This document shows positions 19,659 through 26,751 of a stretch of 34,965 bases of DNA, piece by piece. The notes beneath the pieces are model-generated. The model had not been told where the DNA came from. It saw only the letters and a program-made list of their open reading frames with translations, and did no database searches. A program made the position numbers and the translations under genes. The DNA is from an uncultured Caulobacteraceae bacterium (GTDB lineage: Bacteria; Pseudomonadota; Alphaproteobacteria; Caulobacterales; Caulobacteraceae), in assembly GCA_903923135.1 (NCBI GenBank), contig CAIXWN010000102.1:1-34965 (forward strand), in the 5' to 3' direction. Positions within the stretch are counted from its first letter, which is position 1; every line of letters starts with the position of its first letter.

Positions 19659-21131
19659 TCAGATGCGCCCGTCCCGGATGAACGCCCGGTCCGCCCACAC
19701 CGAGTGGGTGCCGCTGCAGATCTTGTGCGGCAGGGCGATACGCGCCACGGGCCCCTCTTCGAAACGACGGCAGTCGATGAGGATGCATTCGGACCGACCC
19801 GTGTTCTCGTCGATGACAAAGCTGACGAGGTAGCCGTCATCCTCCTCCGTGGCGCCGATTCGCGGAGCGAATGGCGCCTCGCTGGCGTAACGGCCCTCGG
19901 CCAGGTCCACCCGCCAGGACTGGCCGGTCTCGAGGTCATGCTTGACGAAGCCGGTGAACAGGAACCATCCGGGCCTGGCCACGGTGGAATAGGCGTAGCG
20001 ATAGGGGCGCCCGGCAAAGCGCTGGTTGAACATGCCGAACTCCAGGACCCGATCGTCGAGATGACCCTCGCTCGTCTCGCCAGTCCTGAGGTTGAAGCGC
20101 CAACGATGAAGTTTGGGTCGGAAGCTGTATTCGTCAAGAAACGCCATCAGGTGCCCGTAGCCATCGGGCGCGGTCTTGATCGGGCGCGGCGTAGGATTTT
20201 CCTGGAAGTAGGCGTCCATCACCAGCTCATCGCCATCCTCGAAGGCGTTGAGGAAATGCAGGATGTAGCAGGGATCGGCCTCGAACCACCGCATATCCGA
20301 TCGCGCGCCATGCCGGGGTATCACCCCGAATCGCGATGGCAGGCCCTCGTGCAGCCGCACCGCATGGATGTTACGCTTCAGCAGTTCGGCGTCCCAGAAC
20401 ACCGGCAGGTCATTGACGATCGAGTAGCGTTCGCTGAACGCCATGTCATGCGGCAACCGCGGCCCCGGCAGGTCGATGGGGATGTAGCTGCTCACCTTGC
20501 CGGAACGGTCGACAACGCCGTAGTGCATGTATGGCGCATGTGTTGAATAGTTGAAGAACAGCAACTCGCCGGTCCGCTCGTCGACCTTGGTGTGGGCGGA
20601 GACACCGTCCAGCGGGGCCCATGGCGCAACGCCGAGTTGCTCAAGGGTCTCGGGATCGAGCACATAAGCCTCGCCGCATTGATAGAAGGTGGCGATGACC
20701 TTGCCGCCGTGCACAACCACGTCGGTCGAGGCGGTGTCCTTCAGGCCGCCGTGCGCGCCGAATCCCGGTCGCAGCGACACATCGGGGCCGTCCATCAGAC
20801 CGCCCCAAAGGGAGCCGCCGACTTCCTGTTCGGCCTGTAAGCCGCGGGTGCGCACCCAGCGGTTGCGATAGCTGGCGCGGCCGCCCTGGAAGTCGATCTG
20901 ATGCAGCATGCCGTCGCCGTCAAAGGGGTGAAACCGACCCAGCGGCTGGTGGATCTGGTTCTCGGTGTTGCGGATGTAGACGCCGTCGATGTCGGCGGGA
21001 ATCGCCCCTTCGATGACCTCAAGGTCCCAGGCGTTGACCTCCTCGTGCAGCGGCGTCCACGCGCCATTCAAATAGGGGTGATTGCTCGGCATGAGCGTGG
21101 TTTGAATAGGCGGCAGGTGCTCTAACTTCAT
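19659..21131 (-). CDS. Carotenoid oxygenase-family dioxygenase (carotenoid/stilbene cleavage type)
   Basis: A 490-residue non-haem iron enzyme of the RPE65/CCD/lignostilbene dioxygenase family. The four expected iron-binding histidines are present in family context: H180 (SAHTKVD), H228 (LPHDMAF), H292 (LHFLNAFEDGDE) and H476 (SGTHSVW). The N-terminal NPYLNGAW..-like opening (NHPYLNGAWTPLHEEV) and GVYIRNTENQ are also typical. These enzymes split conjugated double bonds with O2; bacterial members act on apocarotenoids or lignin-derived stilbenes, and I cannot choose between them. ATG 21131 has GAGGAAGG just upstream. It lies 133 bp downstream of an NTF2-like gene that an IS has split, so its expression may have changed. 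Confidence 0.92.
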   Translation of the reverse strand: MKLEHLPPIQTTLMPSNHPYLNGAWTPLHEEVNAWDLEVIEGAIPADIDGVYIRNTENQIHQPLGRFHPFDGDGMLHQIDFQGGRASYRNRWVRTRGLQAEQEVGGSLWGGLMDGPDVSLRPGFGAHGGLKDTASTDVVVHGGKVIATFYQCGEAYVLDPETLEQLGVAPWAPLDGVSAHTKVDERTGELLFFNYSTHAPYMHYGVVDRSGKVSSYIPIDLPGPRLPHDMAFSERYSIVNDLPVFWDAELLKRNIHAVRLHEGLPSRFGVIPRHGARSDMRWFEADPCYILHFLNAFEDGDELVMDAYFQENPTPRPIKTAPDGYGHLMAFLDEYSFRPKLHRWRFNLRTGETSEGHLDDRVLEFGMFNQRFAGRPYRYAYSTVARPGWFLFTGFVKHDLETGQSWRVDLAEGRYASEAPFAPRIGATEEDDGYLVSFVIDENTGRSECILIDCRRFEEGPVARIALPHKICSGTHSVWADRAFIRDGRI

Positions 21132-21427
21132 GGGGCGCCTTCCTCGGGCAAGCTTCAGGCGACCAGTCAAGTCCCCAACGGCCCCCTGACGCCCCCTTGG
21201 TCTCTACAGCCAAACCGGCGCGCCGACCACCGGGGCGGCCGCGGACGCGACGGAAGCGCGCGTGTCAGGCGGCATAGAAGAATCTCTCCTCGACAATCTT
21301 CCCCTCCTTGACTGTGTAAAGCACGATTTCATTCCTGGTGTGGCGGTGACCAGTGTCCCGGAAAGTCTGGTCAATGACGAAACGCACCGTGAACTGTTCG
21401 CGGTTCACATGGGGACCCAATAGCTAG

Positions 21428-21436
21428 GCTCAGGAC
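21428..21436. repeat. Left terminal inverted repeat of the IS
   Basis: GCTCAGGAC, perfect match to the complement of the right end; preceded by CTAG target duplication. Confidence 0.88.
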
Positions 21437-21499
21437 CTATTAAATTGTTTGCGCGGGGCGCGACAGATTGATTCACTGGCGGTGCGAGGAGGCGCTGCC

Positions 21500-22254
21500 A
21501 TGAGTGATTTGTTCTGGCTTTCGGCGGCGCAGATGCGTCGGATCGAGCCCTATTTTCCATTGTCGCACGGCGTGGCGCGTGTGGACGACCGCAGGGTGAT
21601 CAGCGGGATTATCTTCGTGATCCGCAACGGGCTGCGGTGGCGCGACGCTCCGAAGGACTATGGCCCACACAAGACGATCTATAATCGCTTCATCCGCTGG
21701 AGCCGGCTTGGGGTGTTCAACAAGATCTTCGCCGCCCTGGCGGCGAAGGGCGGCAAGACTGATCAGTTGATGATCGATGCGACCCACCTAAAAGCTCATC
21801 GAACGGCGGCGAGCCTGCTCAAAAAGGGGCTGTTCCCCGACGTATCGGACGCACCAAAGGCGGTTTGAACTCCAAACTGCACGCCCTCTGCGATGGCCGC
21901 GGACGGCCTCTGGTCATGCTGCTGAGCGAAGGCCAGATGAGCGACTACAAGGGCGCGGCGTTGATGATCGATGCGTTCCCCAAGGCCCGGGCCCTTCTCG
22001 GCGACAAAGGCTACGACGCCGACTGGTTCCGCCAGGCCCTGACCGAACGCGGGATAACGCCGTGCATCCCGCCAAAGGCCAACAGGAAAATCCAGATCGA
22101 CTACGACAAGGGCCTCTACAAGCAGCGCCACAAGATCGAGAACATGTTCGGCAGGATCAAGGACTGGCGACGCATACACACCCGCTACGACCGCTGCGCG
22201 CACACCTTCATGTCCGCCATCTGCATCGCGGCAACCGTCATCTTCTGGCTATGA
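21500..22254 (+). CDS. IS5-family transposase, OrfA and OrfB joined by -1 frameshift
   Basis: OrfA starts at ATG 21500 after AGGAGG and stops at 21868. OrfB is in the -1 frame and stops at 22254. A switch at AAAAAGGGG (21821-21829) would give the continuous family sequence KKGAVPRRIGRTKGG, whereas OrfA alone ends in an unrelated tail. The DDE residues fall in MIDATHLKAHR (OrfA), GDKGYDADW and KIENMFGRIKDWRRIHTRYDR (OrfB). The encoded DDE transposase catalyses cut-and-paste or copy-out transposition of this IS. Programmed frameshifting is known in this IS group; the joined product would be about 251 residues. The alternative is that the shift is an inactivating mutation. Confidence 0.9.
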
Positions 22255-22261
22255 TCAATGA

Positions 22262-22270
22262 GTCCTGAGC
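22262..22270. repeat. Right terminal inverted repeat of the IS
   Basis: GTCCTGAGC, the complement of the left end, followed by CTAG. Confidence 0.88.
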
Positions 22271-22548
22271 CTAGCAGGCATGGATTTCATGGGTGTCCCG
22301 CCAGCAGCAATCCTTGGCGCTGACCGCATCCTTGCCACGCAGCACCGCGCTTTCGCCCGTAGCCTCGACACTGACCATGTCGTGCGACCAGTAGAGTTCA
22401 CCGCGGGCAATAACATCGCCCTGTCGGCACGGCTCGACGAAGTCCTTCGCCAGATCAACGATACCCATGAAGGCCCCCAAGCCCAGTTCGTCCGGGCCCG
22501 GCCGGGGACGTAGGCCACTATCCGGAGCTTCGGGGACACGCGCCAGGG

Positions 22549-23868
22549 CTATTCCACGCTGGCGAGGACTGCGGACAACTTGTCCGCAATTTCATCGATA
22601 TGGGCCCGTTCGATGATCAGTGGCGGCGAAAGGGCGATTATGTCGCCGGTGTAGCGAACCAGGAGACCACTATCGAAGCATCGGTGGAACACTTCACCGG
22701 CCCGGGCGCCCGGCGCACCGGGACGGGGCTCAAGTTCGATCGCGGCCACCATGCCGAGACTGCGGATGTCGATGACGTGGCGCGCCCCCTGCAGACCATG
22801 GATCGCGTCGCCAAAGGGCTGGCTCATCTGCCGGGCGCGCTCGAACAGCCCCTCCTCGGCGTAGATATCCAGGGCGGCCATGCCCGCCGCGGCCGCCAGA
22901 GGATGACCGCTGTAGGTGTAGCCGTGGAAAAGTTCGATCCCCGGCGGGCTGGACTGCACGACCGCATCATAGATCTCAGGCCGTGTGACCACCGCGCCCA
23001 TGGGGACGGCGGCATTCGTCAACCCCTTGGCGCAGCAGATCATGTCCGGAAGCACGCCGAAATGGTCCGCGGCCGTCGCGGCACCCAGGCGGCCGAAGCC
23101 GGTGATCACTTCGTCAAAGATCAGCAGGATGCCATGCTTCGTGGAGATCTCGCGCAGACGCTCGAGGTAGCCCTTCGGTGGCACCAGCACTCCGGTGGAT
23201 CCGGCAAGGGGCTCGACGACAACGGCGGCGATGGTGTCCGCGCCGTGCAGGGCAACCAGCCGCTCCAGGTCGTCGGCAAGCTCGGCGCCGCACTCGCGCT
23301 GACCGCGCACGAAGGTTCCGGAGGCGGGGTCATGGGTGTGACGGATGTGATCGACCCCGGGCAGCAGCGGCCCCCATTGGCGCCGGTTGGGTCCGATGCC
23401 GCCCACGGACACGCCGCCGAAGCCGACCCCGTGATAGCCCCGCTCCCTGCCGATAAGTCGCGTACGTGAGCCCTGGCCGATGGCCTTCTGGTAGGCGAGG
23501 GCGATCTTCAGCGCCGTATCCACCGCCTCCGATCCGGAGTTGCAGAAGAACACCTGGTCGAGCCCCTGCGGGAAGATCGAGGCGACACGACTGGCCATTT
23601 CGAACACCAGAGGGTGACCCAGCTGGAAGGTCGGCGCGAAATCAAGCTCAGCGGCCTGATGGGCGATGGCCTGCACGATGCGATCTCGAGTGTGCCCCGC
23701 ATTGACGCACCACAGGCCTGCGGTGCCATCCAGGACCGGCCGGCCATCGGGCGTGAAGTAGTGCATGTCCTTGGCGCGGGCGAGCAGTCGCGGCTGCGCT
23801 TTGAAGCCGCGATTGTTGGTGAACGGCATCCAGAAAGCGTCAAGAGAGTTCGGACGTGAGCCGTGCAT
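22549..23868 (-). CDS. Class III omega-aminotransferase (beta-alanine/omega-amino acid:pyruvate type)
   Basis: A 439-residue PLP enzyme that moves an amino group from an omega-amino acid or amine to pyruvate. The opening LDAFWMPFTNNRGFKA and VLDGTAGLWCVNAGH are very close to omega-amino acid:pyruvate transaminases. The PLP phosphate-binding stretch NSGSEAVDTALK lies at 110-121, the ring-binding aspartate is D252 (FDEVITGFGR) and the Schiff-base lysine is K281 (CCAKGLTNAAVPMG). ATG 23868 follows GGAG. It lies 87 bp downstream of the TonB receptor on the same strand, so the two probably form an operon. Beside polyamine genes it could process putrescine, aminopropanal-derived beta-alanine or similar compounds; the exact amine is inference. 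Confidence 0.92.
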   Translation of the reverse strand: MHGSRPNSLDAFWMPFTNNRGFKAQPRLLARAKDMHYFTPDGRPVLDGTAGLWCVNAGHTRDRIVQAIAHQAAELDFAPTFQLGHPLVFEMASRVASIFPQGLDQVFFCNSGSEAVDTALKIALAYQKAIGQGSRTRLIGRERGYHGVGFGGVSVGGIGPNRRQWGPLLPGVDHIRHTHDPASGTFVRGQRECGAELADDLERLVALHGADTIAAVVVEPLAGSTGVLVPPKGYLERLREISTKHGILLIFDEVITGFGRLGAATAADHFGVLPDMICCAKGLTNAAVPMGAVVTRPEIYDAVVQSSPPGIELFHGYTYSGHPLAAAAGMAALDIYAEEGLFERARQMSQPFGDAIHGLQGARHVIDIRSLGMVAAIELEPRPGAPGARAGEVFHRCFDSGLLVRYTGDIIALSPPLIIERAHIDEIADKLSAVLASVE

Positions 23869-23955
23869 AGGAAATCTCCGTTTAACGGGTGTCTCCCCCG
23901 CGCGCCGGCCGGGATGCGCGGCTCGCCGGAGCGGTCGGCGCGAGGGCGGTCGCGG

Positions 23956-26394
23956 TCAGTATTTGACCGAGGCGGCCAGACCGATGGTCCGGGGACGCAG
24001 CGTCGTCGCCTCAAAGAGAGTCGTGGCCGAGTCCTGGTGGGTCAGGCCCAGCCGCGGGTGGGCGTTGAGCAGGTTGTTGGCGAACAGCGCCACGTCCCAC
24101 TGCCCGACGGTCACGCCCGAGCGCAACGAGACCTGATGCGTCGCAGGATTGGGAACCAGGCCAGAATCATAGAACGCCGTGTTGGGATCCTCGTTGGGGA
24201 TTGGCGCCGTTCGCTTGCTGCTGAACTCATAGTCCAGCCGCACGAAGGCGTCCTTCCCCAGGGCGGTGAAGTTGTACTGGCCCGCCAGGGTTACCGTCCA
24301 CGGCGCGACATCCAGCGAGTCTCCCTTCACATCCAGGACGTCGCCGTTGGCGTCCAGGGCGGTCTTGGAGAACTTGGCGTCCGTGTATCCAACGCTCAAC
24401 TCAATGTCCAAGGCCTTGGTAACCTGCCACTGCGACTGTAAGTCAAAGCCTTGGCTGACCGCCTCGCCTGCGTTCGTCGTGAACTGTATTCCGCAGGACG
24501 GAACATAAAACGCCTGCTGGATGTTGCTCCAGCGGATGTAGTAGGCGCTCGCCGACACCTGCAGTTTGCGATCGAAGAAGCGGTCCTTGGTGCCCGCCTC
24601 ATAGCTCCACACGGAGTCCGAATTGTAGGACGTCGGGAAACCCGATCCGCAGTTGGGCGGCAACGGCGGCGTCGCACCGCCAATCCGGTATCCCTTCGAG
24701 GCCGTGGCGTAGACCAGGTCGTTCGGGGTCAACTGATAGGACAGGCTGAATTTCGGCGTGAACGGGTGTTCGCTTTTTCCACCGGCCGCCAATCCGCCGT
24801 TGTCGAAACTGGGCGGTCCGCCAAGCAAATCCTGGGGACCGTCGTTGGTGTTGGCGAAGGCGAATTTGGTCCAGGCGTATCGCAGTCCGACGTTGAATTT
24901 CAGCTGGCTGGTGATGGCGTAGGTCGCGTCGAGGAACAGGGCTTCCTGACTGTCCTTGGCGCGTGTGTTGTTGATATAGTCGTCGCCGTTGGGGAGCAGA
25001 TTCTCACCCCAGGCGGTGAGCATGTCCTCACCCCAGAGCAACTGGGTCAACTGCGGCAGCATCGGGTCGCGAATCTCTTCCTTACTCTGCTGTCTGTTGA
25101 ACGAATAGAAGAACCCTGCCGTCCACTGCAACCGGGCCTCCGGAGTGTTAGATTGGACGCGGATTTCCTGGGTGAAGTTCTGCTGTGCGTTGGTGATCAG
25201 GTTCTGAGCGTAGTAGTTGGCCATGCCCGGCACGTTCGGACCCGTGGGCGTCAGCAGCGGGTATTGGGCTCCACAATTGTTCTCACAGGCGTTGCCCTGC
25301 GGGTCGATCGCATAATCAAGACCGTACTGGTTGATCGCCGGATCGGACGAAAGGAAATGCTGAAAAAATGAGAGGTTATAAAGCGTTCCGCTATAGCCAT
25401 TGACGTGTTCGAGACGATCATAGTAGGCTGTATTGGAAATTATCTTCACTGGCCCCAAATTGTATTCGATCTTCAGGGTGGGCAAGTAGAACCGATCCGG
25501 GTCGGCCATGCGATCGGGCGTACCGCTTCGATAGTTGCCTGGACTGGAGACGCCCACCCAGTAGTTGTCGTAGTTGTGCTGATCTCGCTTCTGGTAGTCG
25601 ATCGCCGGGGTGATCAAGAGGTCCTTGTTGGGCGCCCAGGTCAGCGCGCCTCGGAGGGCATAGGTGTCGGTCCGGTTGGCGTTGCGGTCGGTCACCGCGA
25701 GGGTCTGATAGTCCACCCGGTTGATCCAGCCTCCATCCCGGCGTCCCCAGGCGCTGATGCGGAATCCAAGCCTGTCCTGGACTAGCGGGCCGCCCTCGGC
25801 GAGGCCGCCCTCGTAGCTGGCGCCGCCGTTCTCGGTGAAGGCCAGTTCGCTGTGGGCGAAGCCGGAGAAATGGGTCAGGCTGGGCTGGTTGGTGATGTAG
25901 CGGACGGTGCCGCCTTCCGAACCGGCCCCGAACAGGGTTCCCTGCGGCCCCCGCAGCACTTCCACCCGGCTCAAATCGAACACCGATGGCAGGGTGTTGT
26001 TGGCGTTGAGCCCCAGGTTTCTGACCTGCACCGGCGCGTCATCGATGTAGACGCCCGTCGTGCCTGAACCGGCAGTCGAACTGATGCCGCGAATGGAGAT
26101 ATCGTGGCTTTCTTCGGCGAACGTGACTCCGGGGGTGAACTTCGCCACATCGGCGAAGGACTTGATACCCTGGATTTCCATCTTGGCGGCCGTGAAGGCG
26201 CTGACGCTCTCAGGAACCTTGCTGAGCGTTTCTTCCTTGCGCGTAGCTGTGACGACGATCTCGCCAACATCGGTGGGCGCCGAGGCCGAGGTCGTTCCTG
26301 CGGCCGCGGCGGCCGCGGCGCTGGTGACCAAAAGCAAGGGACCCATCGCCACCGTCGTAAGAGCCGCCCGCCACCAGACTCCGCGCTTCATCAT
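23956..26394 (-). CDS. TonB-dependent outer-membrane receptor
   Basis: An 812-residue outer-membrane importer. A signal peptide covers about residues 1-32 (MKRGVWWRAALTTVAMGPLL then Ala-rich). A TonB-box-like EIVVTATRKEE follows at 45-55, then the plug domain with IRGISS, GVYIDDAPV and RVEVLRGPQGTLFGAGSEGGTVRYIT (about 58-170), and a beta-barrel ending in SVKY, with a C-terminal aromatic residue as usual. Starts ATG 26394 or 26391 are equivalent; the upstream Arg-rich extension is rejected. It belongs to the large group of alphaproteobacterial receptors whose substrates are often not iron. Coupled to the aminotransferase gene, uptake of an amine-containing compound is a reasonable but unproven guess. 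Confidence 0.93.
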   Translation of the reverse strand: MMKRGVWWRAALTTVAMGPLLLVTSAAAAAAAGTTSASAPTDVGEIVVTATRKEETLSKVPESVSAFTAAKMEIQGIKSFADVAKFTPGVTFAEESHDISIRGISSTAGSGTTGVYIDDAPVQVRNLGLNANNTLPSVFDLSRVEVLRGPQGTLFGAGSEGGTVRYITNQPSLTHFSGFAHSELAFTENGGASYEGGLAEGGPLVQDRLGFRISAWGRRDGGWINRVDYQTLAVTDRNANRTDTYALRGALTWAPNKDLLITPAIDYQKRDQHNYDNYWVGVSSPGNYRSGTPDRMADPDRFYLPTLKIEYNLGPVKIISNTAYYDRLEHVNGYSGTLYNLSFFQHFLSSDPAINQYGLDYAIDPQGNACENNCGAQYPLLTPTGPNVPGMANYYAQNLITNAQQNFTQEIRVQSNTPEARLQWTAGFFYSFNRQQSKEEIRDPMLPQLTQLLWGEDMLTAWGENLLPNGDDYINNTRAKDSQEALFLDATYAITSQLKFNVGLRYAWTKFAFANTNDGPQDLLGGPPSFDNGGLAAGGKSEHPFTPKFSLSYQLTPNDLVYATASKGYRIGGATPPLPPNCGSGFPTSYNSDSVWSYEAGTKDRFFDRKLQVSASAYYIRWSNIQQAFYVPSCGIQFTTNAGEAVSQGFDLQSQWQVTKALDIELSVGYTDAKFSKTALDANGDVLDVKGDSLDVAPWTVTLAGQYNFTALGKDAFVRLDYEFSSKRTAPIPNEDPNTAFYDSGLVPNPATHQVSLRSGVTVGQWDVALFANNLLNAHPRLGLTHQDSATTLFEATTLRPRTIGLAASVKY

Positions 26395-26751
26395 GTTCAG
26401 ACACCCTGTTTGAAACCCGTCTCGCGACCGGACCGTCCTCCTGCGCCGCCGACGCGTCAAGAGACTGTGATCACATCAAGTGTCGCAGCCTCGCCCCCCC
26501 GTCTGGCGCCTATCCGGCCGTCAGAGTATGCTCCGCTCTTGAGCTCATTTGAATAGAGGCGTTCTGGCGGGCCGCTGACGACCTGCCTCTGCATGATCAG
26601 CACGCGACATAGAGCATGGGTCGGACAGGCCCGACGCAGGACGAAGCCGGATCACAGCGGCGCGTGGCGGGCCCGCACGGCGGAGCCCTAGGGCAGGGCG
26701 CCTTGACGATCACCGCCCGCCTCCCCTCCCCCACACCCCACGAAGCCCGAC
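26395..26751. other. 357-bp divergent control region of the receptor and ligase genes
   Basis: No coding region is supported here. The region holds the palindrome at 26465-26476 and the half-site at 26650-26657. A C/T-rich tract precedes the ligase start. No convincing sigma70 pair was recognised in either direction. Confidence 0.6.
26465..26476. promoter_or_regulatory. Palindrome CTGTGATCACAT, candidate regulator site A
   Basis: It matches the palindrome CTGTGATCACAG at 11 of 12 bases and contains the perfect 10-bp palindrome TGTGATCACA. It lies 71 bp upstream of the TonB receptor start, within the divergent region. A near-identical site lies in front of the ligase-oxidase operon at 32745-32756, and a half-site GATCACAG lies at 26650-26657, 94 bp before the ligase gene on the other side. 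Binding by the GntR regulator of this cluster is inference. Confidence 0.5.

Follow-up and report, generated by a model that had tools for sequence, protein, structure and literature searches.

A premature stop codon and an IS5-family element at one site in a SnoaL-like gene: the gene was probably stopped before the insertion

How can a gene that is cut by an insertion sequence carry a stop codon at the very junction that is restored when the element is taken out? The question arises in a stretch of 34,965 nucleotides from an uncultured Caulobacteraceae bacterium (contig CAIXWN010000102.1; the whole stretch is called the window below), in which inspection of the sequence revealed one gene on the minus strand, at 21265-22468, split by an element of the IS5 family. 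The explanation favored here, with a probability of roughly 0.83, is that the gene was dead first and hit second, i.e., that it had been stopped before the element arrived; this order of events is one that we infer. Most likely, the odd stop at the junction requires no special mechanism and is the outcome of ordinary biology.

The N-terminal half of the gene (22274-22468, minus strand) comprises 65 codons starting with an ATG at 22468, and the C-terminal half (21265-21423, minus strand) has 52 codons and a stop. Excision of 847 bases places both halves in the same frame, ...HEIHAC*LLGPHVNREQF..., with GCC TGC TAG CTA as the codons at the junction. Apart from this TAG, the rejoined frame is fully open. 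With an X at the stop, the rejoined product matches SnoaL_5 (PF20409) along the whole domain (E 3e-11; residues 9-116 of 118 on profile positions 9-118 of 118; 44.2 bits against a gathering cut-off of 24.1). The C-terminal half gives a SnoaL_5 match on its own (E 2e-7), and no Pfam match at E 0.001 was obtained with the N-terminal half alone. As a single Pfam family is matched end to end by the rejoined product, the two halves are regarded as one gene and one protein. An earlier note on this DNA had claimed that the halves rejoin in frame with the spacing of the family and that a TAG (TGC TAG CTA) stands at the restored junction; the end-to-end match bears out the former and the rejoined sequence the latter. 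It is highly improbable that the halves come from two genes or gene copies joined by recombination between elements: exchanges of this type do occur among related copies (W02:393532), but here the same homologous proteins align to both halves, and the single Pfam match runs from end to end with correct spacing.

The element (21427-22271, plus strand) is 845 bp long, its ends having been derived from sister copies, and it has short, imperfect inverted repeats that start GGCTCAGGAC. Its transposase is encoded by orfA (21449-21868, plus strand; DUF4096, PF13340, E 7e-22) and orfB (21865-22254, plus strand; DDE domain, DDE_Tnp_1, PF01609, E 3e-17). The listed start of orfA is a TTG, and an ATG is present further inside, at about 21500. 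A putative -1 frameshift site between the two, C_AAA_AAG, was recognized from the sequence at 21820-21826 (plus strand). The fusion obtained by a -1 shift at AAAAAG matches the IS5-family profile NF033580 of NCBIfam over positions 3-258 of 258, with 271 bits against a cut-off of 110. The IS5-family DDE transposase, the overlapping ORFs with a putative -1 frameshift motif, the length within about 830-865 bp and the duplication of TA at YTAR are all traits of the IS427 group. From the features described in PMC3281130, we take the element to belong to this group.

The limits of the element were fixed using related copies, present at 27 places on six plasmids and in part full-length, together with order-level copies. 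The two flanks of complete sister copies have only TA in common, and the next base outward differs between copies; a 4-bp duplication of CTAG was ruled out by this observation. The target-site duplication here is formed by the TA at 21425-21426 and that at 22272-22273. CTAG is found at 21424-21427 and again at 22271-22274, with the element in between: the left one consists of the target C, TA and the first G of the element, the right one of the last C of the element, TA and the target G. As the element contributes one base to each CTAG, the right-hand one lends no independent support to the stop. The TAG that presently closes the N-terminal half on the minus strand includes the terminal base of the element itself. 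These alignments give TA as the duplication and 845 bp as the length of the element, and the empty site deduced is the same as it would be with a CTAG duplication. The earlier note had reasoned from two identical CTAG copies that TAG should have been present in the target. That argument falls, as the element supplies one base of each, while its conclusion holds by way of base 21424 (C on the plus strand, G on the minus strand), the outer target base and the sole one under the pre-insertion TAG. Identical flanking CTAGs are thus no proof of a CTAG duplication when TA is duplicated at CTAG, which corrects a common misreading.

The dependence of the pre-insertion TAG on one base of a draft genome counts against the gene having been dead first. 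It is nevertheless quite unlikely that the assembly or the consensus is wrong at this repeat edge and that the true codon was not TAG. The assembly is a draft of 279 contigs. At the second copy of the element, contigs C184 and C186 break off within the element, close to its ends, and that copy also has a C at the place matching 21424. Against such an error, the contig passes through the element and joins two halves of one protein, and the single base that matters would have to be struck. The ends of the second copy are identical to those of the first over 128 and 115 bases; the congener G015 has a 382-base match that is 99% identical to the element. From these comparisons, the insertion looks recent.

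The target of related elements was surveyed at transposase loci in the genome contig collection, of which 80 were kept out of 581 confirmed. End pairs, sought with a loose pattern, were found in 73 of the 80 loci and in none of the other 7. TA was present on both sides in 57 of the 73 copies and absent in 16, several of which matched poorly at the ends or were truncated at the edge of a contig. At least L121, L146, L165, L184 and L188 have good ends yet are without TA on both sides; these may have recombined or mutated. Of the 57 copies, three were excluded from the target count, being without flank beyond TA on one side, and YTAR was the target in all of the 54 that were left (CTAG in 31, CTAA in 12, TTAG in 11). 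In a second set, which omits sister-plasmid repeats, tandem dimers, recombinant or internally deleted copies and one-end loci, 32 of 34 sites are YTAR, and the exceptions are one ATAG (the related copy L072) and one CTAC. At least three sites (L057/L148, L060/L142 and L062/L163) are common to the two sets. Both YTAR (45 versus 112.8 expected) and CTAG (18 versus 42.6 expected) are strongly depleted in the window.

A related element forms tandem dimers with one TA between the copies on plasmids of Rhizobium (L100, L103, L104, L111, L112 and L115), which suggests insertion into the CTAG at the end of another copy or circle-type events. The flanks of L106 (W02:393532) combine the left flanks of two different sites in the sister plasmid W01, suggesting an inversion or exchange between element copies.

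Empty alleles of seven joined sites were sought among plasmids, and records covering at least 80% of the query were considered (4/5, 1/18, 1/2, 0/0, 7/17, 3/23 and 1/32 of these were examined for the respective sites). Empty alleles were found for five Rhizobium insertion sites. Each of the five carries the predicted target, and at three of the sites the allele is 100% identical over 298 bases. CCAG stands in a more distant allele of the first site, which is 90.6% identical. The plasmid collection yielded no empty allele for the W06 site (0/13 records cover 80% of the query). The five alleles with their predicted targets argue that this element family leaves its target unchanged. The alternative offered in the earlier note, that the element alters the target bases upon insertion, has the anomaly itself as its one argument; it found no support in these alleles and is very improbable, also because the outer bases differ among copies and so derive from the target. 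An element that carries CTAG and overwrites its target was likewise ruled out by the empty alleles.

A target can also lie in a live tyrosine codon. In a Sphingobium monooxygenase gene, a related element sits at CTAC; the joined sequence reads TAC, and the seven uninterrupted relatives examined all have Tyr (TAT or TAC) at this place. No identical empty allele of this site was found in the plasmid search. The annotated monooxygenase stop in the Sphingobium plasmid AP027337 (L086, 2001-2004) is a TAG made up of the duplicated TA and the first G of the element; this end is artificial and stems from annotating a gene that is interrupted at a Tyr codon. The SnoaL-like gene might similarly have been alive, with TAC or TAT at the target, and outer base 21424 might have changed after the insertion. 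This is quite unlikely, as Tyr is present in none of 39 homologues, the target would fall outside YTAR, and a change is required at one exact base of a locus that shows little decay since the insertion.

Of 40 homologue loci, 39 could be aligned at the place of the stop. Glu is the residue in 27 of these, Asp in 3, Ser, Lys and Val in 2 each, and Gly, Gln and Thr in 1 each; 20 have GAG as their codon. L005, which is from the same genus and nearest in the tree, has GAG, from which TAG is one step away. The syntenic congener G014 (L010) has AGC (Ser), from which more steps are needed. This AGC speaks against the gene having been dead first, as does the existence of targets other than YTAR (CTAC, ATAG). 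The preferred explanation holds that a nonsense change, presumably from GAG to TAG, came before the insertion. The rejoined gene contains one YTAR only, which is the TAG itself, and none was found in the SnoaL-like copies of the congeners G014 and G009. One-step nonsense changes create a YTAR in 20 of 36 cases in the rejoined gene, and in 21/34 and 24/35 in the other two of the three copies tested. For an element dependent on YTAR, a stop of this kind would be almost the only way into the gene, and the coincidence of stop and insertion thereby largely disappears.

The codon phase of insertions was also compared. A YTAR with its T at codon position 1 is impossible inside a live gene, since TAR is a stop codon. 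The T of TA was at position 2 or 3 in each of the seven accepted intragenic sites (L061, L189, W06, L195, W01_749, W02_469700 and the homogentisate dioxygenase-like gene of this genome), a site being accepted if a domain spanned its junction, if the empty allele had an annotated CDS, or if a known gene was in frame. The clearest position-1 case, W04_51899, is a natural stop: in the annotation of the empty allele, a GNAT gene ends there. L068 (methyltransferase) and L078 (DegT-type aminotransferase) resemble it, with domain matches that end before the stop. The Sphingobium site (W05) is at position 1, but its codon is the Tyr codon TAC. Among the survey frames followed up, the SnoaL-like gene has the sole position-1 TAG recognized inside a domain.

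The second copy of the element in this genome (L002, G000:C186; L003, G000:C184) cuts the homogentisate 1,2-dioxygenase-like gene near its C-terminus, and the empty site, CAG ACT AGG TCG, is without a stop. The hmgA match of the fragment is weak. No other copy of such a gene was found in the genome, and homogentisate breakdown may therefore have been lost.

Was the gene already decaying? Two genes on the minus strand served as synteny markers: a listed ORF downstream (19659-21131), which is presumably carotenoid oxygenase-like, and one upstream (22549-23868; 85% to G015), which we take to be aminotransferase-like. The oxygenase has 85-86% amino acid identity to its orthologues in the congeners G015 and G014; the SnoaL-like protein has 48-49% identity to the G014 copy, which likewise sits between the receptor gene and the oxygenase. 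Gene order near the oxygenase (19659-26460 versus L215, L234 and L221) varies among congeners, with aminotransferase and oxygenase in G015, receptor, SnoaL and oxygenase in G014, and receptor and oxygenase in G009. By a Nei-Gojobori count, in which dS is near saturation, dN/dS of the SnoaL-like gene is 0.435/1.10, or about 0.39, versus 0.09-0.13 for its neighbors (oxygenase 0.087/0.781 and 0.096/1.049, aminotransferase 0.113/0.981, receptor 0.130/1.009). In a tree of 40 rows, in which its place is uncertain given the long branch, the end branch of the gene is 1.24 versus a median of 0.11, and only that of L021 is longer. Conserved positions are broken at 11 of 49, the most of the 35 rows compared after five rows under 42% identity had been left out; L013 follows with 9 of 48. 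As the insertion looks recent, this excess of amino acid change in the lineage is probably older.

Constraint on the gene would thus have weakened or shifted, and would not have been missing all along. The frame is open apart from the TAG and the pairwise dN/dS is below 1, which argues that the gene was no pseudogene for the whole of its separate history. In a simulation of neutral decay with 0.1-0.5 substitutions per site, 0.65-1.85 stops arose on average and 44-87% of the runs had at most one, so the presence of a single stop does not discriminate. The genus is represented by 16 genomes including the source genome, one per species; no conspecific or near empty allele was found, as no homologue exceeded about 52% identity in 60 relatives or 390 family genomes. 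It follows from the lack of a conspecific empty allele in these collections that the order of events can only be deduced.

In the most probable course of events, constraint on the SnoaL-like gene would have relaxed first. A substitution would then have turned a sense codon (the sister and 20/39 homologues have GAG) into TAG, which after a C forms CTAG, the sole YTAR in the gene, so that stop and landing site would have arisen at once. The IS427-type element requires YTAR and duplicates TA alone; it would have inserted at the stop by ordinary transposition, and the target would otherwise have remained unchanged. That the gene was already dead before the insertion had been the other option of the earlier note, and it agrees with the sole YTAR at the stop, the GAG in the sister and the fast evolution. 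The apparent paradox of the junction stop is resolved by known rules.

In GC-rich genomes, live genes contain few YTAR sites, and a one-step nonsense change in such a gene creates one in over half of the cases; a nonsense change would then open a gene to such an element. Whether YTAR-seeking elements tend in general to single out genes already dead, a mode of gene loss by "stop first, hop second", is a tentative and rather doubtful extension from one locus. If true, such insertions would be late markers of gene death and not its cause. A limited literature search on insertion sequences with pseudogenes or premature stops and target duplication gave no matching report.

The element can be compared with several known systems. 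One of these is IS711 of Brucella, which we take to be a member of the IS5 family. IS711 duplicates TA at YTAR and resembles the present element in length (842 versus 845 bp) and in having two overlapping ORFs with a -1 frameshift (PMC2266754, PMC3163539). It differs in host and sequence, the likeness being one of description, and trap-assay insertions in Brucella were at TTAA (PMC2266754, PMC3163539). In the Paracoccus mobilome, most IS427-group elements have 2-bp duplications and one has 4 bp; these elements, IS1248 and ISPpa6 among them, are similar to the present element in size (832-865 bp), in their two ORFs with a frameshift motif and in being multicopy, although their sequences are different and the likeness is again by description (PMC3281130). 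IS5 of E. coli also prefers Py-T-A-Pu, mostly CTAG, but it duplicates four bases (PMC5493358), whereas the element described here duplicates only TA. The element is a fresh copy of a known element type, in a decaying gene.
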